Below are positions 24,653-41,487 of a stretch of 64,000 nt of DNA, piece by piece. The translations under genes and the position numbers were made by a program. Each line of letters begins with the position of its first letter. Position 1 is the stretch's first letter. Source of the DNA: Colius striatus (lineage: Eukaryota > Chordata > Aves > Coliiformes > Coliidae); the NCBI RefSeq assembly GCF_028858725.1, contig NC_084762.1:2613374-2677373 (forward strand). The letters are read 5' to 3'. The notes below the pieces were generated by a model that ran no database searches, was not told the origin of the DNA, and was given only the letters and a program-made list of their open reading frames with translations.

Positions 24653-27600
24653 GTAAGACTTTCACCATTCACTTGCTGATAACTTCTCTATTTCTTTAAA
24701 TTTATTTCAAATTAGGATGTTACTACAAAAAATACCAGCTCTGGAAAGTGAGGTCTTCCAGCCACCTAGTCTTGAAACCTGCCTCCACCACAAATGTGTG
24801 GTGTTCAAAGCTTGGAAGGCAGCTTGATCCTTTTTTTAATCACTCAAGCCTTTTTGCCTCCTATGACTAGCTTTAGCATTGGGCAGTGTCACAGAAAATT
24901 CGCTTGAGGGATGTGACACCTGCACATGAAAGACTGGATCCAGACTGCTTTGCTACACCACTCAGAAGGCAATGACTAAAAGTCACTATCCACAAGCCTA
25001 GAAATGATGTAGTAATTTTGAAGTGAATGTTTCCATAACCACATTCAATTTCAAGCCAACAAGTCTCAGGTTTTCTTATTCATAGAATTATTCCCTAGAG
25101 TACTCTCCTCACTGCAGCATGTGGCACACACTTTGGCTACGTGGGAGGAGGAAAGCCTACTTCAATATTGTGCAAATGCACTTTAATCTAGAGCTAGAGA
25201 GAAACATCACAAGATAAAATTAGGGCCAGTTCTACTGATTTATGGAGTACAATTTAGCATTTAAGATAAGTCTAGTGTTCCAATGCAGGTAGGAGGTTCC
25301 TCTCCACAACTAAAACTCTCAGTGCACAGAACTTTGTTCTTTGAATAAGGACATTTACTTACCAAATATTTGCTTCTTATTTTCTCCCATTGTTTTTCGG
25401 TGCATATTTTATTTCACTGAGTAGAAAACTTGACTATTAAGCCAATATCTAAAATACAAATAACTTTTGTTAAGCCCTCTATAGCAGCTTCAGAATATCT
25501 CAGGAGAAAAGACAGAGGCTCTCTCTGATTTCTTAGCAGTAGGCAATTCAGGGTTAAACCCTAAACAGAAAAGCAGCACAGCTGCTGGAAATCTTCTGAA
25601 GGAACTCCCAGGACAATCAAAACCTTAAGAGTGTGACCTAACCACCCTCCCACAAAATTAATTTAAACTCCAAATGTTTGCTAAGAAGAAAGGGATCTGT
25701 GGGAGGAAGAGGAGAAGAGGAAAGATGAGACCAATCTATTTTCCAAACTTATATATCTGTGCAAATATAATTATGTATCTATATTTACACTGTGAAGAAA
25801 GGGTTTTTTTTTCTTCCATTTGTCTCTATGTAATGAAGTCAGGCAGAATAGCAAGAGACTTCAGAACATAGTGTATATTGCAACACAGGTTACCTTGTCT
25901 CCTCAAGCTCTGTTAGCAGTCAGGATGACAAAAAGGGAGGAAAGGTAACAGAATTCTTGTACTTCCCCCCTCCAGTGATTTTCAGCAGCCGGTACAGAGG
26001 ATACTCTGGGCTGCCAAAAATCACCCAGCATCTGGCTCTGACAGCTGCTTCTAAGTGCACATACAAGTCAACATGATTCCATTCTGGCTTGGTTTAAATC
26101 TAAACAGGTTTGATGCTGGTGGTTCTCCTGGTGTCCAACATGCTCCTGACAAAGGAAGGAGTGACATCCTTGCCCATCTGCTCCAGTGGATCTGTCAACT
26201 GCCAAGTTTCCCTTGGGGAACTTTTTGACAGAGCAGTTAAACTTTCACACTACATCCACTTCCTCTCTTCAGAAATATTCAATGAGTTTGTAAGTATTCT
26301 GCCTTTTCCCAAGGGTGAGGAAATAATAGATGAAATAGATGAAAGATACCATTTCCCTGTCCTCCTTTATCTGCAGGACAAGTTTCTGTTTGCTTGGTGC
26401 CAGTTTCACCCATAAGACTCACCAGAAACTTTTGACCTCTAAAGTCGAGTGATAAGTAGTGAAAAAGTAGTGATAAAAGCAAGGGAACAACTAGCTAATG
26501 GAACATTTGTATTGAAGCTCTTTCTTACCTGTTTCATTAATGCCTGTCCTTGCTGATCTGCAGGATGAACGTTATGCTCAGGGCCGGGGGTTTATTACAA
26601 AAGCTGTTAATGGCTGCCACACTGCCTCCTTAACAACTCCTGAAGACAAGGAGCAAGCTCAGCAGATTCATGTAAGTCCCCCATTTCTGATGCCATTCAG
26701 TGTAGTAGAGACATGGGAGAGTGGGAAGAGAGCTGGCTAAGAGATAGAGAAGTAGCAGATAGAGAAGGGAGGAATCAGCTCGATTAGAATAGAAAAAGCC
26801 AGGGAGAAGAAAGTACCAAAAAGGCCAAGAACAGTTCATTTAAGATTTGCTGGTACAAAGTTACAGACTACAGAGAACATGTAAGTACCAATACTTTTCA
26901 TATTCCCTTCACTTTTCCTGCATGATACATTCAGCCATTGCACCTTATTTCCAACTACAACACAACCTCATGGAGCAGTGCCAGTTACCATGCCTGTACA
27001 GAACTGAGAACACTACAGCCTTTCAACATCTTAAACATCACGATACGTTGGCTATATAGCTAGTGCTGTATGTACAAGAGGTAAAGAGCTCTGCAGTAAC
27101 TGGAAACATTGATGTGGCTGAATAAATACTAAAATAGGTACCTGCTGCTACCAGTAGGCAAAAGTGGTTGCATCTTCATCCAAATACAAAGATAAAATGC
27201 TGTAAAATGCTACAGTACTTTGCTACATACACTGATTCCACATTAAGAGAAGATGAGGATAGTCTTGCTCAGCCTATGCTTACAGATAGAATCTGAAAAT
27301 ATTCTGAAGGAAAAAAACCCACAGGTGTAAAAATGGGGATGTGCCAGGAAGAAATCTCTCCATTTCATGGTGGTGAGATCCTTGCACTCCCAGTATCACC
27401 ATCCTCTCAGTATGTCGTTCAGAAACTCTATTGGGAGCAATAGAATTCACAGCCCAGGGTTCATGACAAGTCTGGATGTGTTCAGATCCAGTGCATCTAG
27501 CAAAAGTACCAAGTAGCTGAATACTATCATAACCATAAGCTTTATGAATGCTAATTGTCCACAAAAAAGGACAGTTGTTAAAACCAGACAGCTATCGTTG

Positions 27601-30071
27601 GCATCACTGTTGTTCAAAGGGGACGACAGATCAGTTGGGGTAATAAGAGCTATTTAGTACTTTACCATAATGTGCATCACACTGAAACCTTTTAAAAAGG
27701 TTTAAACTGTGGGTTTTTTTCCACAGAGATGAAACACCACTGTACTCTCTAGTTTTTAATGTGGGCTGGCTTTAATGATATTTTCCTTTGCAATACTGTA
27801 ACTGCATGTGGCATTACTGTAAACCATAAAGACAACAATGACAAACTTCAAACATAATTGCACAGAGTTATCCAAGCTATAGGGCACATTCAGTGGTAGG
27901 TCCTAGATTAAGATCCCAAATCACTAAGACATTGCTCTGAATGCCTCCTCACGCTGCCAGTGTGTAGCCTTCTTGTTTTAACTGACTTCTCTCACTGTGG
28001 GTGAGCAGCACGAAGACCTATTGAATTTAATACTGGCGGTGCTGCGCTCCTGGAATGATCCCCTGATCCATCTGGCCTCTGAAGTACAAAGAATCAAAGA
28101 AGCTCCAGACACCATCCTCTGGAAGGCTGTAGAGATTGAAGAGCAAAGCAAGCGGCTTCTAGAAGGGATGGAGAAAATAGTGGGGCGGGTAAGTATCAGG
28201 TCCTTAATACCCTTCCAGCCTGTTGCTCTAAGGAAGACACATAAGAGTGACACACACCTGGAATAAGAGAGGCAGCAACAGATGGGAAGGAGGAAAAGGA
28301 AATCAGTATGGCTGAACCTCAAAAAACCTTCCCAGCTTTCTGCTGCTTTCTTACAACTTCTAAAGACACAAGGTGATGTTGAATGGCATAGCATAATCCA
28401 GCATACTCCCAGTCCTGCTTCAAGGGAAGCTGTAATCATTAGGCCTGGTAACCATCGCTCTATCTTTGATTACTTTGAATTTGGAATCTTGATTATTTTA
28501 AGTATGTCTGTGATTTTTCCACACACACACATATTTATATAGCCTATTTTTACATGTTTGCATGCCTACAGGTATTGTATACAGTTTTCAGAAGCAGGGA
28601 ATGTATTTAAAGCTGTTCTGGAAGCCTGAGCTATTGCAAAGATACAGCATTACAGCAAAGTAATCGTGGGATCTTTTGCTTCTCTTTTTGTACCACAGTA
28701 GTTCCTCGGAACTCTGGCTCAGACTTGGTTCCAGCTACACTTGTAAGGTTAGGCAAGGCTGTTGTCTGAGAAAACCCATACTCAAATACCCCTGGTTATC
28801 AGTAATTGATTGAAAGCTTTCCTGAATAAAATCAGCTCTAGCTTGTTTATTTTTAAAGGGGCCTCTGTTAGTGCCTCAATACATCATTCTGTCAGTGAGC
28901 TAGATGTTAACAAGAGATTCTGACTCTACTGGCTTTTGCCTGAGCTCTGAGTGGTTGAACAGCATTAAGAGTGCCACCACCACTGCATCTACCACTTTCC
29001 ATGGGATCACTCGGTCTCTCTCTCTATTGTCTCTATACTCAGAAACCTTATCCCATTCAAGCCACAAATGCAATTATCAGTGTAATCAAATGCATCTCTG
29101 CCCCATATCCACAGGTAAAAACAGCACAGATGAGGATCCAAAATAACACTAGAAATGCCGCTGCAGTTATTCTGTCACCACATTCTCATTCACATTATTT
29201 ATACAGGGTGGTAGAAGGCAGTACTGTCAAATTCATTACTGTCAAACCACATTTGAGTGACAGGTCTATTTTGTCTTGCCCATTGCTTAAGCCACATGAC
29301 AGAGGCTCCACTGGTACTCTCCTCTGTGTTTGTACAAAGTACAAGTGGTAGGAAATAAGGAAGGTACATAAGGAGGTATGGTACATCTGAAGATGTATTG
29401 CTGAAGTATTTATCTGGTACCGTGTTCTCATACTGCTTGTATCAGAGAGATCACTTCAGAGATGGGCTGAGATCAAGCTGGAGATACACATGGAAGAAAA
29501 CTCCTAGGAGAAGTATTAACAAAAGATTTCAAGGTGGAGGGAACTAAAAAGGTTACTAAAAAGGGATGAGTTCACACATGAAGGAAGGTTTGATTTCTCT
29601 GCAAAGTCACATTCCACTGGACATAAGTTTAACACATTAGTTCTCTAAACTCAACTGACAGAGTTAAGCTTCTTTCAGTTTATTCCCCTAAAATACATAG
29701 AAAACAGACAAACCCATTCAAAATCTTCATGAAGATATAAAATACCCTACAGAATAGGAGGAAATGTAAGAGGAAACACTTTTACAAGCCTTAGACTAGC
29801 AACCAGCATTCCCCAATGCTCTGTTCCACATCCACTCAGATTCACCACCGTTTACTTCAGTATCATTTTGTGTCTTGAGGTTAATTCTGGTGAGATTGGA
29901 AACGACATTTACTCTCAGTGGGACGGCCTCCCATCCCTGCAACTCGATGATGAGGACTCCAGACTCTCTGCCTTTTACAACCTGCTGCACTGCCTCCGCC
30001 GAGATTCCCACAAGATTGACAACTACCTCAAGGTTCTGAAGTGCCGCCTGATCCACGACAGCAACTGTTAA
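24625..30071 (+). CDS. PRL: Prolactin precursor, five exons (join 24625-24652, 26108-26289, 26564-26671, 28009-28188, 29880-30071)
   Basis: Prolactin is a secreted pituitary hormone of the somatotropin/prolactin family, a four-helix class I cytokine that signals through the prolactin receptor (JAK2/STAT5). In birds it supports incubation, brooding and, in some lineages, crop milk. The five exons total 690 nt: 229 codons plus stop. Residues 1-30 are the signal peptide (hydrophobic core about 10-24) and the mature hormone of 199 residues begins LPIC. The six expected cysteines fall at mature positions 4, 11, 58, 174, 191 and 199, which form the three disulfides. Family signature 1 spans precursor residues 88 (C) to 121 (W); signature 2 spans C204 to C221. 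All introns are GT-AG and every exon length equals the classical value, so the gene looks intact. The start is the only ATG giving a signal peptide (context ACCATGT). No N-X-S/T sequon is seen near the mature N-terminus; an N-G-C triplet lies at mature 56-58. Confidence 0.98.
24653..26107 (+). other. PRL intron 1 (1,455 bp)
   Basis: Bounded by GTAAGACT and CTAAACAG, phase 1. The interior shows no repeat family I recognise and no other exon. The acceptor lacks a long pyrimidine tract (it reads TTTAAATCTAAACAG), but the exon match leaves little doubt. Confidence 0.9.
26108..26289 (+). CDS. PRL: PRL coding exon 2
   Basis: 182 nt encoding residues 10-70: the rest of the signal peptide, the cleavage site before LPIC, the small N-terminal disulfide loop (cysteines at mature 4 and 11) and helix 1 up to NEF. 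The acceptor is AAACAG|GT and the donor TTT|GTAAGT. Exon length and the phase 1 to phase 0 pattern match other prolactins. The frame stays open into intron 2 for 41 codons. Confidence 0.97.
26564..26671 (+). CDS. PRL: PRL coding exon 3
   Basis: 108 nt encoding residues 71-106, from DERYAQGRG to the QQIH end. It carries C88 (mature C58, half of the large disulfide) within the N-G-C triplet. Acceptor CTGCAG|GAT, donor CAT|GTAAGT, both ends phase 0. Intron 2 before it is only 274 bp. Confidence 0.97.
26672..28008 (+). other. PRL intron 3 (1,337 bp)
   Basis: Bounded by GTAAGTCC and GGTGAGCAG, phase 0. No repeat family or extra exon is recognised. It contains an A7C3 tract at 27,311-27,320 and a G3T7 tract at 27,711-27,720. 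An earlier AG at 28,004-28,005 would add one codon (CAG), but family alignment favours the AG at 28,007-28,008. Confidence 0.88.
28009..28188 (+). CDS. PRL: PRL coding exon 4
   Basis: 180 nt encoding residues 107-166, from HEDLLNL through the RSWNDPL segment to KIVGR. It covers helix 2 and helix 3 and the tryptophan closing family signature 1. Acceptor GAGCAG|CAC, donor CGG|GTAAGT, phase 0 at both ends. The exon length equals the family standard. Confidence 0.97.
28189..29879 (+). other. PRL intron 4 (1,691 bp)
   Basis: Bounded by GTAAGTATC and TGTCTTGAG, phase 0. The last base before the exon is the G of a GAG-type acceptor, less common than CAG but acceptable. No repeat family or additional exon is recognised. 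Confidence 0.88.
29880..30071 (+). CDS. PRL: PRL coding exon 5 with stop
   Basis: 189 coding nt and TAA at 30,069-30,071, encoding residues 167-229. It carries helix 4 and the last three cysteines (C204, C221, C229). The segment [11 protein letters not shown] holds serine at 196. From memory, galliform prolactins have phenylalanine here while mammals often have serine. The terminal SNC ending is as in other birds. Confidence 0.97.
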
Positions 30072-30338: not shown

Positions 30339-30344
30339 AATAAA
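30339..30344 (+). terminator. PRL polyadenylation signal AATAAA
   Basis: A canonical AATAAA lies 268 bp after the stop codon, giving a 3' UTR of roughly 290 nt with cleavage expected at about 30,356-30,365. A GT-rich stretch follows (GTGCTTAACACTGAGTGG). Confidence 0.85.
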
Positions 30345-30365: not shown

Positions 30366-31043
30366 GCTTAACACTGAGTGGTATGCATGAATGAAAAAGA
30401 ACTGCTATGGTTTATGTCTTTAGTAGTAGCTTCTCTTTTTAGATCTCAATATCCAGGATATATTATTTACATAGGTCCTTACTTTCTACCCAAAAAAGGA
30501 GATGGGGAGAGGGGGAAGAGGGATATGAAAAATCAGATTATTCACCTATTGCACAAAACTACCCTAAACTAAAAGTGTGGCCTGAAAACCAATCTACTAG
30601 AGCAGAAGCTTTAACTCTGTACAAACATTGTCTAAGGCACAAAAAGGCAAGAAAATCAACCTGGCTAACATAGCTACTGATACCCCACACAGTCCATGGA
30701 GAGAAGGCAACACATTTGGAATTTTAAGGACAGATCCAGGTATATCAGCACCTCTACTGGCTATTTCAGAAAGAGGTATTTTTAAAGCAACATTCATTAT
30801 GTTTGAGCTGACTGAGAAATTAGAAAATTGGATGCAAGAGGCACAAAGGACAGACAAATGAACAGGGACAAAGGTAGGACCTGTCCACAAAGCAACAAGG
30901 GAAAAGAGAAGGACTCGGGCACAGGAGAATGGAAAACAGGGGTAGGACCTGACCACAAGAGACCCAGGGATCAGGAGAAGGCAAGAGACTAAGAAGTGAG
31001 CAGAGGAGCAGAAACCGGTCACAGAGCAATAGAAGAGGAGGGG
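30366..31043. other. Spacer between PRL and the repeat array
   Basis: No gene is seen. From about 30,840 the sequence becomes purine-rich on the + strand and already looks repetitive: GGTAGGACCTG with CCACAA a few bases on occurs at 30,873 and again at 30,941. This may be a still more decayed fringe of the adjacent array. Confidence 0.6.
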
Positions 31044-31640
31044 AGCACGACACAGTGGCAGAGCGAGAGCTGCAAGGAGGGGAGCTCGACAAGGCCAGAG
31101 AGAGAGGCACGAAGAAGGGAGCAAAATGAGGCAGCAGAGTGAGGCACGAGGAGGGAAGCAAAATGTGGTGGCAGAGTGAGAGGTGTGAGGAAGAGAGCAC
31201 AACGTGGCGGCAGAATGAGTAGTGCAAAGAGGGGAGCAAAACGCAGCGGTAGAGAGGCACAAGGGCAGCACAATGCAGCAGCAGAGAGGAGCGAGGAGGG
31301 GAGCAGAACGCAGTGGCAGAGCAAGAGGTACAAAGAAGAGAGAACAGCATGGCAGCAGAGTGAGAGTTGCGAGGGAGATAGCACAACGTGGCAGCAGAGT
31401 GATAGTTGCAAGGAAGAAAGAACGTGGCAGCAGAGTCAGAGGTGTGAGAAGGAAAGCACAATACCACAATAGAGCAAGATGTGTGAGAAAAGAAAGTAAC
31501 ACGGTGGCAGAGCGAAGTAGGAGAAGGAGAGCACAGTGCCACAACATAGAAAGTTGCCAGGAGAGGAGCACAACATTACGGCAGAGCGAGGCACAAAGAG
31601 AGCAGCACAATGCAACGTCAAAGTGAGGTGCAAGGAAGAG
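31044..31640. repeat. Degenerate tandem repeat, 16 units of about 31-40 bp (mostly 36-39)
   Basis: Units start with AGCACAA-like or AGCAAAA-like heptamers at 31044, 31083, 31120, 31157, 31196, 31235, 31266, 31302, 31341, 31380, 31419, 31455, 31495, 31530, 31567 and 31604. A typical unit reads AGCACAACGTGGCAGCAGAG, then TGAGAGTTGC and an A/G-rich end. Spacing is 31-40 bp, most often 37 or 39. The last unit runs straight into the first unit of the homogeneous array at 31,641 in the same register, so the two are parts of one locus of different age. Because 39 is a multiple of three, antisense frames stay open and leucine-rich over long runs. Confidence 0.9.
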
Positions 31641-33570
31641 AGCACAAAGCGACGGCACGGCACGGCGGGATAACCACGAGAGCACAAGGCGACGGCACGG
31701 CGGGATAACCACGAGAGCACAAGGCGACGGCACGGCGGGATAACCACGAGAGCACAAGGCGACGGCACGGCACGGCGGGATAACCACGAGAGCACAAGGC
31801 GACGGCACGGCACGGCGGGATAGCCACGAGAGCACAAGGCGACGGCACGGCACGGCGGGATAGCCACGAGAGCACAAGGCGACGGCACGGCACGGCGGGA
31901 TAGCCACGAGAGCACAAGGCGACGGCACGGCACGGCGGGATAACCACGAGAGCACAAGGCGACGGCACGGCACGGCGGGATAGCCACGAGAGCACAAGGC
32001 GACGGCACGGCACGGCGGGATAGCCACGAGAGCACAAGGCGACGGCACGGCACGGCGGGATAGCCACGAGAGCACAAGGCGACGGCACGGCACGGCGGGA
32101 TAACCACGAGAGCACAAGGCGATGGCACGGCACGGAGGGATAGCCACGAGAGCACAAGGCGACGGCACGGCGGGATAGCCACGAGAGCACAAGGCGACGG
32201 CACGGCACGGCGGGATAACCACGAGAGCACAAGGCGACGGCACGGCGGGATAGCCACGAGAGCACAAGGCGACGGCACGGCGGGATAGCCACGAGAGCAC
32301 AAGGCGACGGCACGGCGGGATAGCCACGAGAGCACAAGGCGACGGCACGGCACGGCGGGATAACCACGAGAGCACAAGGCGACGGCACGGCGGGATAGCC
32401 AGGAGAGCACAAGGCGACGGCACGGCACGGCGGGATAGCCACGAGAGCACAAGGCGACGGCACGGCACGGCGGGATAGCCACGAGAGCACAAGGCGACGG
32501 CACGGCGGGATAGCCACGAGAGCGCAAGGCGACGGCACGGCACATCGGGATAGCCACGAGAGCGCAAGGCGACGGCACGGCACATCGGGATAACCACGAG
32601 AGCACAAGGCGACGGCATGGCACGGCGGGATAGCCACGAGAGCACAAGGCGACGGCACGGCACATCGGGATAACCACGAGAGCACAAGGCGACGGCATGG
32701 CACGGCGGGATAGCCACGAGAGCACAAGGCGACGGCATGGCACGGCGGGATAACCACGAGAGCACAAGGCGACGGCACGGCACGGCGGGATAGCCACGAG
32801 AGCACAAGGCGACGGCACGGCACGGCGGGATAACCACGAGAGCACAAGGCGACGGCACGGCACGGCGGGATAACCACGAGAGCACAAGGCGACGGCACGG
32901 CGGGATAGCCACGAGAGCACAAGGCGACGGCACGGCACATCGGGATAACCACGAGAGCACAAGGCGACGGCATGGCACGGCGGGATAGCCACGAGAGCAC
33001 AAGGCGACAGCACGGCACGGCGGGATAACCACGAGAGCACAAGGCGACGGCACGGCGGGATAACCAAGAGAGCACAAGGCGACGGCATGGCACGGCGGGA
33101 TAGCCACGAGAGCACAAGGCGACGGCACGGCACGGCGGGATAACCACGAGAGCACAAGGCGACGGCACGGCACGGCGGGATAGCCACGAGAGCACAAGGC
33201 GACGGCACGGCACGGCGGGATAGCCACGAGAGCACAAGGCGACGGCACGGCACGGCGGGATAGCCACGAGAGCACAAGGCGATGGCACGGCACGGCGGGA
33301 TAGCCACGAGAGCACAAGGCGACGGCACGGCGGGATAACCACGAGAGCACAAGGCGACGGCACGGCACGGCGGGATAACCACGAGAGCACAAGGCGACGG
33401 CACGACGGGATAGCCACGAGAGCACAAGGCGACGGCACGGCGGGATAGCCACGAGAGCACAAGGCGACAGCACGGCACGGCGGGATAACCACGAGAGCAC
33501 AAGGCGACGGCACGGCGGGATAACCAAGAGAGCACAAGGCGATGACACAGCACAGCAGGATAACCAAGAG
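31641..33570. repeat. GC-rich minisatellite, 50 units (36 x 40 bp, 14 x 35 bp)
   Basis: Every unit starts AGCACAAGGCGACGGCACGG or a close variant and ends in a CACGAG-type block. The long form is 40 bp; the short form lacks one CACGG pentamer from an internal CACGG doublet. Counting by eye gives 36 long and 14 short units, which sums exactly to 1,930 bp. Short units start at 31681, 31716, 32151, 32226, 32261, 32296, 32371, 32486, 32881, 33036, 33311, 33386, 33421 and 33496. Variant sites: GATAACC versus GATAGCC, CACGG versus CATGG or CACAT, CACGAG versus CAAGAG, AGCAC versus AGCGC. The long unit is 27/40 G+C with six CpG, so the array holds roughly 270-285 CpG. Antisense frames of 998, 784 and 668 codons cross it but are consequences of the repeat. 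Confidence 0.98.
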
Positions 33571-33615
33571 AGCACAAGGCAATGGCACAGCAAGAAGCAA
33601 CATAGCAGGAGCTTT
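33571..33615. repeat. Decayed right edge of the minisatellite
   Basis: A last partial unit (AGCACAAGGCAATGGCACAG) breaks off into AAGAAGCAACATAGCAGGAG. This unit and the full unit before it have lost most CpG to TG or CA, unlike the array interior, as expected for an edge no longer kept uniform by exchange. Confidence 0.85.
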
Positions 33616-36600
33616 TGACCCCACCTACATACTGCCCTCTTGAGCCATAACTAAACTCAACCTTGGCTTCAACACACAGCTTCAGCAAAGAGCTTAAAAT
33701 TCCCTTCAGCTCCTGGTGGCTTTGGCTTGCCCCTCGACAAGCCTGCTGCGCTGCTTCAGCTGAGCCATCGTGGAGAGTAGAGTGAAACACCAGAGAATAT
33801 GGGTTTGAGGGTTTAAAGCCCTACTGCAACAGAATAAACATTTCTAATTGGGTGTATGTGTATATATACACACGCATATATAATGGCCTCTTTTCAATTA
33901 TTGATTGCCTCAGGGTTTATCTGTTTAAGTATATGCTAAGCCCATTTTTAATACATACAAAATCAGCTAAAGTGCAAACCAGTTCCTTATTGGACAGTCC
34001 TAACTGACATCTTTCATGAGATCTGAAATGCAGAAGACTTGGGGCACACGCAACAGCCGTTTGACACACTCAGCTGTACCGCCAGCACTCAAGAGGAAAA
34101 TGGGTAAAACTTGCCAGGCAAAATGCAAGAGCCTAGACTAGAATTTAACCTGATCGTAATATTCGATTTTCTGTTATACTTCCAATGGGAGAAAAAAAGC
34201 ATTTTAAAGGGAAAAGGAGAGAAACAATATCCTTTGTAATTATCACAAGTGCTTGGAATTACAGTGTGAGTTCTTATTCAAAAGAAAACATGAATAATGT
34301 GACTACTCTGTGTTGAGCTGGAAAAGCGATTATGTCTTGCTGAGTAAACTCCTACCTCAGAATTTCTTTAGAATTCAAAAGCAACTTGATTAATAGGGCA
34401 GACGTTCATAATTTTACATTTACATGACTAGATCTAAAACAACGACTTCCATTAACTGCTTAAAAATTACAGTGCTAAAACAATTGCTTAAAACTTGCAC
34501 ACATTGCTTCATTATAGCCTGTTCTAGTCCAATTATGAGGTTTTAATTTCATCAAGAAAGACAGAAAAGAACGACCAAAAAAAAAAACCAACCCCCCATT
34601 TTAAACAACTCCAAAGCTATCTGGCTTGCAGCTGTTTAACTAAAGGGGTTATTTAAAAGTGATCTGGTTAATATTCTGAGTCATCACAGCTGTCAGACAC
34701 AGAAAGACATCCAACCCCATGAGCACATTCAAAGCTACACCTTCATTGTCAAGTTCCCTGGCACGACAATGCCTTCAGACTCTGAATGCTCAAGCCACAA
34801 TACAGGCCAACTGGCAATTCTCTTTTTTCAGTTGCTAACAGGAACAATACATTCTTATCTCAGTAATATTTTGTTAATTAGCACATGTTTCTTAATCAAA
34901 GGAATGGATAAGACTTTCCTTCCCCCCCCCCCCACCAAGTGTAATAATTTCTGGCTACTTCACTCTTCCAGCATTTGAAATGGCTACTTTTCTAATTATT
35001 CCTTCAATACTCAAACTCAGTCTCCACTGGTTTCTTTACTTCTGTGCCTAAGATTGCTCAGTGATAGGAATGGAAAGAAAAGGTCCACGTGGTTGAAATA
35101 TAGGCTCAGTCCCGTTCCCTTTAAAAAACACGTTCAAGCTTCCATAGATAGCAATTAATTTAAGATCAGAACTTGTGACATCAAGTCTGAATGGTATTGA
35201 GTTCCAACCAACTCATGACTGAGAGCATTTATTGCTGAATACAACAGAGCAAGAGAGAGAAAATAAGAATCTAACTTGCTATTCATGACTCGTGCCTAGA
35301 CTCCAGGACTATAACCATCAGAGCTAACAGAAATAATTTTAAGGGTGATTTTAAAGGCAATAAGAGATGATTTTACTGACAGTAGATGTCATTTGGAATC
35401 AGCTGCTTAACTAATAATGTGATAATCTCTCCACTGTCTCTTTTTTTTAATCCTTTCTTTTGAGACCCTACAAAAAGCCTCCAATGGTTTAGCTTCTAGC
35501 AGGGAAATAAAAGACGATGACTTGCGACTGATTTGTAACCTACGATACAGTTTACCTTCACAATGTTATTTCAAAGGCAACCCACAATTCTCCAGTGAGA
35601 AACCACACCTACCTTCTCATCTCTGAGCAGCAGACATTCTCTGAGGGCTACATTTTAAACCAATTATAAACAAAATGCACACAAACAACAAAACAGGTCA
35701 GCGATGTAACCTCAGTAATCATACTTGTGCATGGATCCATACACTCCAGAAATCAAATGCTACAATCATGCCTGGGAACATCACAGGTACTCACATTTCC
35801 ACTGAACCTACTGGGCTTACTGGCCTGTAAAGCTGTTCACACACATGATTATTTCTATCTCAACTCTCAACAATTTGTACCTGCAAATTACTTTGAGGCT
35901 CAGCTTCAGTCTCCAAGATTTACCAGTGTTCAGTGCAACTAGAATGTAAGACTGATCATCCACAGCGCGACATTAAGTGATAAAGAGAGGTTTCAAACTC
36001 ATTTCAAAACCAAATTGTATCCATTTCAGGAATGAAGCTAAATTCAATTAAACATGACTTGGAAAACAATAGGTTTTCTCTCAGCATTGCAACAACACCT
36101 ATCATCATTGGGAGACAGAGGGTATATTTAGATATATTGCCTCATAGTTGAACACTTAAGGAAGGTACATTTTCTCATAGTGATTGTTAATTTCCTTTCA
36201 TGTATTCAACTATGAGAAGGAAATAATAGATGAGTAATAGCAAGGGAGCACAAATAAGATAGAATACCGTACTAAAGGAAAATAGAGTCCTCCTTTCACC
36301 TATAACTGTACTGTGCATAGAGGGAAAACTCAAACTCTGCTTCCTGTTCTGTCTCTAATTCTCTTCCATATCACCTGCTTTATGCTCTTTTAATTCTCCA
36401 AGAAGCATCAGAATCTCATGTTAATGTTCTGGTTTTTGGAAAAGAGTAATTAGTCATGGCATACTGCCCAGTAATTCATGCATCTGAAATACAATTGCAA
36501 GATACAATCACTTTGCTTCCTTTCCTTAGGAAGGAATTACCAAGTTCTTTCCCTGAGTAGTAACATTTTCTATCAGTATTGGCCAACCTACACAACTTTA

Positions 36601-38976: not shown

Positions 38977-38977
<1 letters not shown>

Positions 38978-39028
<51 letters not shown>

Positions 39029-39055
39029 ATGCTGCTGCTGCTGCTGCTGCTGCTG
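38978..39055. repeat. Compound microsatellite (CTG)11(ATG)7(CTG)8
   Basis: A perfect, uninterrupted symmetric trinucleotide array: 33 bp of CTG, 21 bp of ATG and 24 bp of CTG, ending in CAG. There is no evidence that it is coding; no surrounding frame has recognisable protein. Perfect repeats of this length are likely to vary in length between individuals. Confidence 0.98.
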
Positions 39056-39190
39056 CAGAGAACCTCCAGCCGCTGGCTTGCCTTCCTCCCTCAACTCTAT
39101 CAAGAGCTTCCTCTCAGGTAGCCACCCAGGCCAGATCTGGCAGCAGGACCTGGGAGGACCCCCTTTTATACTCTCCTGGGTGCTGTGATG

Positions 39191-39325
39191 TCATCATTCT
39201 CAGCTGATATCACTGCTGTTAGGGAACACATTAGTTGCCAGGTGTTGGCAATGTGATGTCCATCCTCAGGTAACATCACCGTTGTTAGGGAACACATTTG
39301 TTGCCAGGTACCAGCAGTGTTCTGT
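39191..39325. repeat. Tandem duplication of about 67 bp
   Basis: Two adjacent copies share GTTAGGGAACACATT(A/T)GTTGCCAGGT at about 39,217 and 39,285, with matching left parts (CTCAGCTGATATCACTGC versus CTCAGGTAACATCACCG). They adjoin the LINE relic on its right and give a repeated peptide in the antisense frame, which makes that frame look longer than the LINE similarity supports. Confidence 0.8.
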
Positions 39326-39665
39326 TCCACAAGAGTGGAATAGAGGAGGAGAATCATCTCCCTCAACATGCTGGCCACACTTTTTTTTGTGCAGCCCAGG
39401 ATATAGTGTTTGTGCAGAGTGGGACTGTCTTTCTGGGCTGTGCCTACACACTGCCAGTTCATGTCCAATTTTTCAACCATCAGTATCTCCAAGTCCTTCT
39501 CCACAGAGTTGTTCTCAATCCACTCATCCCTCAGTCTGGATTGATGCTGGGGATTACCCTGACCCAGGTGCAGGACCTTGCACTTGGTTCTGTGGAACCT
39601 CAGGATGTTTGATGTTTTGACGTCAAGCCTGTAAAAGTCCCTGTGGATACCATCCCTTCCCTTTA
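39313..39665 (-). mobile_element. LINE (CR1-like) reverse transcriptase C-terminal relic, antisense
   Basis: Translated on the - strand, the piece reads like the part after the catalytic core of a CR1-type non-LTR reverse transcriptase: an LKGRDGIHRD segment, then TKCKVLHLGQGNPQH, DEWIENN, EKDLEILMVEKLDM, and ILGCTKKSVAS with REMILLLYSTLVE. The order matches that region in avian LINE copies. No catalytic ADD motif is included, and both ends are truncated, so it is inactive. It differs from the + strand CR1 at 40.5 kb in sequence and direction. Confidence 0.85.
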
Positions 39666-40464
39666 GCAAATCAAAACATTAAAAATGGTTTGTTGCCTTT
39701 CACAGATGAAAGATGGTTTTGATCGAGTTCTAACCTTAAAAGCAATCAGCAGGATTTCTTTTACATATACTTAATTGTAGACAGTGGAAACTGTATTTAA
39801 ACTCAGTCACCAACATAATAACATACATAGTGGAAAGAGACAACAGTGATAAGGTTGTTTTGAGAGCAGGAACATATTCTGTTAATCCATATACATAAAC
39901 AATAACCTGAGACTTTTGAAGTTGTTTATAAAATACAAGGTATATCACATTTCGGTTGTACGTGTTGAAGGCATAAGGAAAATGTAATACATATGAACAT
40001 CTTTCCTCGAGCTAGATACAAGCCTGTAGATATTCCCAAAAAGGTCATAAGAGTTTGGAGCATCTTAGGAAATGCTTCTTTACATTTCCAGTCTCCTTTC
40101 TCTTAAAAAAACCCAGCCTCACAACCAGGTTTTACATACAATGAACGTGTAGTAGGACAGCTGACAGCAAAGAAAAATCTCTGTGATTCAGTTTCCATCT
40201 TTCCCTCCCCACAAATACACAGACCTTCTAAATCAAACTGGTCAAATGATGCTTCAGGTTTTCTTATTTATTGACTGAGATGAATTCTGGATTCACAAGT
40301 TTCAGAAAGAAAATTGAAGTTTTCAGTGAACCTGCCACTTTAGTAGGTAAGAAACGTGTCATTTCAGCACACTCTCATGAGATAATATTCTATGAGCAGG
40401 GATCTCCAACAAACCCACCATTTTAACAACAATTCATAGGTAAACATTCATTAATAACAACAAT
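39666..40464. other. Intergenic spacer between two LINE copies
   Basis: AT-rich sequence with nothing recognised apart from an A7C3 tract at 40,105-40,114. Confidence 0.65.
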
Positions 40465-41487
40465 GGGTGGATGGCTGAGTCCAAAGAGTGGTGGTGAACA
40501 GAGTTAAATGCAGTCGTTGGCCAGTTGCCAGTGGTGTTCCCCAGGGCTTGGTGTTGGAGCCTGTTCTATTTCATATCTTCATCAATGGTCTGGGCGAGGG
40601 ATGGAGTGCAACCTCAGTCAGTTTGCAGATGACACCAAGCTGGGCAGGAGTGTTGGTTCGTGTGAGAGCAGAAGGGCTCTTCAGAGGGCCCTGGCCATCC
40701 TCCCCTGGAGCGATGCGCTGAGGGCAATAAGATGAGGGTCAACATGACTCAGAGATGGGTCTTGCCCTTGGGCCACAGCAACCCCAGACAGTGACACAGG
40801 CTGGGGCAGAGGGGCTGGAAAGCTGCCCAGAGGGAAAGGACCTGGTGGTGTAGGTCGATAGTGGTGAACGTGAGCCAGCAGTGTGCCCAGGTGGCCAAGA
40901 AAGCCAAGGGTGTCATGGCTGGTATCAGGAAGAGTGTTGCCAGCAGGTCCAGGGCAGGGATTGTCCCCATGTGCTGCAGCTCAAGGGCTGTGTTCAGTGT
41001 TGGACTCCTCACCCACTGCCAGAGGGACACTGAGAGGCTGGAGAGTGGCCAGAACAGGGCAGCAGAGCTGGGGAAAGGGCTGGAGCACAAGGATGCTGGG
41101 GAGGAGCTCAGAGAATGTGGGTGTTCAGCCTGGAGGAGGAGGCTGAGGGCTGACAGGAGCACTCTCTGACACTCCCTGACAGGAGGTTGTGGCCGGAGGG
41201 TGTCAGTCTCTGCTCCCAAGTAACAAGTGATACAATAAAAGGAAATGGCTTCAAGTTGCTTCAGGAGGAGTTTAAACTGGAGATGAAGAACAATTCCTTC
41301 CACAAAAGTGTTGTCCAACCCTGTCCCAGGCTGCCCAGGGCCATGGTGGAGTGCCCATCCCTGGAAGGATCCCATAAGCCACGGAGCTATGTGACACGGT
41401 TTAGTGGTGACTGTGGCAGCGCTGAGGGAATGGTTGGACTTGATCTTAAAGGTCTTTTCCAACCTAAAGGCTTCCATGATTCTGTGA
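40465..41487 (+). mobile_element. CR1 LINE, 5'-truncated, about 1.0 kb with ORF2 end and 3' terminus
   Basis: This sense copy begins GGGTGGATGGCTGAG and ends AGGCTTCCATGATTCTGTGA, the usual CR1 octamer-type terminus. It encodes the reverse-transcriptase part [20 protein letters not shown] in one frame and FADDTKLG, the catalytic ADD motif, in another, so a frameshift lies between about 40,590 and 40,625. Later landmarks are GAAAGCTGCCCAGAGGGAAA, CAGCAGTGTGCCCAGGTGGC, CTTCAAGTTGCTTCAGGAGG and GTTGGACTTGATCTTAAAGG. The copy is 5'-truncated and disrupted, hence inactive. An antisense frame of 339 codons at 40,749-41,768 is a shadow of this element. Confidence 0.95.

Follow-up and report, generated by a model that had tools for sequence, protein, structure and literature searches.

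A strand-asymmetric, GC-rich minisatellite downstream of the prolactin gene of Colius striatus

Related tandem arrays and how the prolactin-flanking locus compares

Avian satellites (CNM and the like) have units near 41-42 bp and are abundant and heterochromatic. Among minisatellites of the MS32/MS205/CEB1 type, strand asymmetry is common. This human class is described as GC-rich and autosomal, with interspersed base-variant units, and for GC-rich minisatellites of the autosomes a gene-conversion mechanism by strand annealing has been put forward (PMC2599865). The human Y-chromosomal minisatellite MSY1 is given as 75% A+T, with 25-bp units arranged in single-type blocks (PMC2599865).

The array considered here lies 3' of the prolactin gene (PRL) of Colius striatus, within a 64-kb window that constitutes the whole stretch of DNA analysed. 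It is a genuine but ordinary minisatellite, odd mainly in its dense CpG content amid CpG-poor surroundings. Set against the general description of CNM-like avian satellites, the array is alike in its unit of about 40 bp, but is short and situated beside a gene. It resembles the MS32/MS205/CEB1 class in being GC-rich with interspersed base-variant units (PMC2599865), a likeness drawn from one sequence of the locus. It does not contain the Jeffreys core. With MSY1 it has in common a tandem arrangement of units that differ by base substitution, whereas its composition is 67% G+C and its unit types are interspersed (PMC2599865). Keyword searches of open-licence PMC yielded no description of a tandem array past avian PRL among the titles and abstract openings listed, and the initial annotation had likewise known of none. 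Another paper mentions a CA repeat located 5' of prolactin in the rat, an element distinct from this array (PMC3899988).

Structure of the array and its T-poor domain

Positions refer to the window, and features lie on the plus strand unless stated otherwise. PRL was placed at 26107-30071 by similarity and Pfam, extending from codon 10 of a chicken prolactin bait to the stop codon at 30069-30071. Four coding blocks match this bait, at 87-92% for three of them and at 73% for another, whose alignment overruns its exon; the search with this bait did not find the first nine codons in the window. The open reading frame that contains the first matched block gave a Pfam match to Hormone_1 (E 1e-10). 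An AATAAA poly(A) signal, identified by sequence match, is present 3' of PRL at 30339-30344, and the clean array starts 1294 bp beyond its end. The coding blocks, the Hormone_1 match and the length of this gap together bear out the initial placement of the array about 1.3 kb past the PRL poly(A) signal.

Tandem Repeats Finder (TRF), which the initial annotation had proposed running on the window, reported one dominant array at 31638-33592 (period 40, 50.6 copies, 91% matches, score 3035); no other row anywhere in the window scored more than 187. Combined with cutting at each unit start, this resolves a clean core of 50 full units at 31638-33567, totalling 1930 bp with a GC content of 0.672. 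Units of 40 bp account for 36 of the 50 and units of 35 bp for the other 14, the two lengths differing by one pentamer within an internal run. These counts, and the one-pentamer difference, are exactly those initially annotated, for an interval (31641-33570) that corresponds to the same array in a register shifted 3 bp later. Minisatellites are defined here as head-to-tail units of about 10-100 bp across hundreds to thousands of base pairs, a range within which both the unit lengths and the extent of the core fall. Beyond the core, unit cutting, composition and CpG count delimit a 24-bp partial unit (33568-33591) and a decayed 3' tail, which together occupy 33568-33612 and reach the end of the T-poor domain. 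Other repeats in the window include a trinucleotide tract of some 27 GCT/GAT units (38977-39056) and a 65-bp sequence in two tandem copies that are 78% identical (39195-39325). A minus-strand open reading frame at 39166-39669 had no Pfam match at E 0.01; it resembles the C-terminal portion of a reverse transcriptase of the CR1 type.

The clean array sits within a larger T-poor, purine-rich domain that includes a degenerate upstream array, a context that the initial annotation overlooked. Delimited by AT skew and segment score, the domain extends over 30834-33612 and encloses both arrays. Its T content is 4.6% and its segment score 466.6, compared with 22.0 for the highest-scoring other segment in the window, whichever of the four bases is considered, and AT skew in 500-bp windows rises to 0.83 within it, compared with at most 0.31 for windows starting outside 30500-33700. 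Directly upstream of the clean array, TRF reported a row at 31058-31444 (period 39, 10.4 copies, 66% matches). TRF, wraparound alignment and autocorrelation define an older degenerate array of period 37-39 bp at 30972-31637, such that decayed repeats span about 0.7 kb on the PRL side of the clean core. The consensus of this older array gave a wraparound score of 280, compared with 29 in 10 shuffles; because that consensus was fitted to the same stretch, the fair test of periodicity is the autocorrelation, the best value of which (0.47) was reached in 0 of 1000 shuffles (maximum 0.384). A weaker and less certain continuation occupies 30840-31040, where the periodicity was reached by 7 of 1000 shuffles, and no periodicity was detected at 30620-30839, where 738 of 1000 shuffles reached the observed autocorrelation.

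Because the plus strand is T-poor, long antisense open frames arise as an effect of composition. Overlapping minus-strand frames of 998, 784 and 668 amino acids are found at 30597-33790 and are likely to mislead gene finders. In the repeat domain, the minus-strand frames contain 0-4 stops each and the plus-strand frames 23-29 stops each. A protein-coding repeat, expected to have units divisible by three and one preserved frame, was rejected, given this density of stops in every plus frame and the mixture of 40- and 35-bp units.

The clean unit and the consensus of the older array have a 10-base run in common, an outcome equalled in 5 of 2000 shuffles. An exact copy of this run occurs only once in the older array; with up to one mismatch it occurs at four sites there and at nine sites outside the T-poor domain in the window, and because near-matches are also found outside the domain, the run alone is no strong mark of relationship. 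Whole-unit alignment of the clean and old units was reached by 24 of 1000 shuffles in fixed register and by 76 of 200 under free rotation, and the clean unit, when aligned locally with the older array, scored 25 (shuffle maximum 28). Adjacency, composition and the common block nevertheless make a common origin of the two arrays likely, though not proven.

CpG content and turnover of units

The clean core contains 266 CpGs, with an observed/expected ratio of 1.25, compared with 191 (0.14) in the 30.8-kb left flank and 263 (0.19) in the 30.4-kb right flank. About a third of the CpGs in the window are therefore concentrated in 3% of its length. CpG islands are defined by a GC content above 50% and a CpG observed/expected ratio above 0.6 across more than 200 bp, values that the core exceeds in GC content, ratio and length alike. 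CpG density is lower on either side of the core, with 21 CpGs in the older array (observed/expected 0.43) and a single one in the last 85 bp of the T-poor domain (33528-33612; 0.17). The 3' edge is also decayed in sequence, the last full unit carrying six changes.

One site in the unit has two states, G or A, with A present in 22 of the 50 units. When this site is left out, the units carry 31 changes from the consensus, 18 of which fall in the CpG columns (10 of the 40 columns), corresponding to change rates of 3.8% at CpG positions (18/472) and 0.9% at other positions (13/1408). This excess has a p value of 9e-5 under independence of the changes, an assumption that does not hold because units are copied from each other; counting distinct changes only, 7 of 14 are in CpG columns (p 0.04). 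The frequency of CpG-column changes suggests some methylation in the germline. Taken together, the CpG pattern is consistent with a young core carrying at least partial germline methylation and with edges no longer subject to turnover.

The 50 full units comprise 17 distinct sequences, the commonest of which is present in 12 units. Of the 49 pairs of neighbouring units, 11 are identical, compared with a permutation mean of 5.4 (p 0.008); this was the only significant lag, identity of unit pairs being non-significant at the other 11 of the 12 lags tested (2-12). Such interspersion of variants with local duplication is a trait of hypervariable minisatellites. Unit length and the state of the G/A site showed no association (Fisher p 0.54). 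Successive quarters of the array contain 1 (first 12 units), 9, 10 and 11 changes, and the gradient along the array (Spearman 0.33, p 0.018; with the last unit excluded, 0.28, p 0.048) is suggestive only. The longest exact internal duplication measures 219 bp, which, together with the interspersed variants, indicates that no long block has been copied wholesale. Local duplication combined with conversion would yield the observed variant pattern, as a candidate rather than a proven mechanism. The recent expansion or homogenisation that had initially been read from the uniformity of the array is supported by the small fraction of differences (about 0.9%) outside CpG columns and the two-state site, by the retention of most CpGs although both flanks are depleted, and by the identity of neighbouring units beyond that of shuffled order.

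Origin and possible roles of the array

The initial annotation considered the array close enough to PRL to matter for its chromatin or transcription. In the T-poor domain, no match was found to a canonical G-quadruplex (G4Hunter maximum 1.12) or to an R-loop-forming (RLFS-like) repeat under simplified rules, nor to CTCF-type, chi or human PRDM9 13-mer sites using simplified motif strings. The Jeffreys core, GGGCAGGANG, is absent from both strands of the domain, as it is from many minisatellites. The domain contains seven CCCTC pentamers on its minus strand and two GATA-type hexamers on its plus strand, matches that are meaningless because the strings are too short. Four 120-base strands analysed for hairpins were each less stable than their own shuffle mean (z 0.81 to 2.13), and Rfam returned 0 matches at gathering scores. 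The G-quadruplex, R-loop, hairpin and motif tests thus provide no positive evidence that the array influences the transcription or chromatin of PRL, while leaving room for such an effect. The only two R-loop-type G clusters of the window occur on the plus strand at 40803-41079, in a locally GC-richer block.

It is very unlikely that the array is a selected regulatory element, that is, a block dense in CpG that governs chromatin state or aids termination past PRL and tunes output by its length. Its location 1.3 kb beyond the poly(A) signal, its CpG observed/expected ratio (1.25, with the flanks at 0.14 and 0.19) and its purine richness on the PRL sense strand would suit such a role; however, no G-quadruplex, R-loop, CTCF-type, stable hairpin or Rfam match accompanies them, and the germline methylation suggested by frequent CpG-column changes also argues against it. 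We attach very little probability to a self-renewing orphan CpG island, in which turnover would regenerate a CpG-dense, strand-asymmetric block faster than deamination, and array length would tune PRL methylation or read-through termination, producing heritable parental or laying variation.

Units of close to 40 bp are found in some bird satellites, and the array could on that basis belong to a dispersed satellite family, one copy of which came to lie next to PRL. This origin is distinctly unlikely, given that the clean unit has no match outside the T-poor domain in the 64-kb window and that the adjoining older array, with its similar period and T-poor composition, fits growth in place. An exact 24-mer of the clean unit had 0 matches in viral and 0 in prokaryote collections, a result that is expected for vertebrate DNA and says nothing of other birds. 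Although tandem arrays of near-identical units are difficult to assemble, inflation or collapse of the copy number by the assembler is highly improbable here: the variants are interspersed, exact internal duplication extends no further than 219 bp and the edges of the array decay gradually.

We conclude with good confidence that the locus is an old strand-asymmetric, GC-rich minisatellite 3' of PRL, in which the PRL-side part has decayed and the core has recently been re-expanded and homogenised. It comprises two adjoining arrays of common T-poor composition, with a CpG-rich core, CpG-poor edges and a mosaic order of variants. The core would have grown by unequal exchange, gene conversion or replication slippage, its source probably being one of the old array's units or a unit related to them, and edges outside the zone of turnover would decay through ordinary mutation, partly by CpG deamination. 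Most likely, the array has no selected function and any effect on PRL is incidental. Length polymorphism is likely, judging by analogy only. If the array is length-variable, it would offer a convenient marker at a gene that matters for brooding and laying, as well as a natural test of whether array turnover sustains CpG density in a CpG-depleted region.
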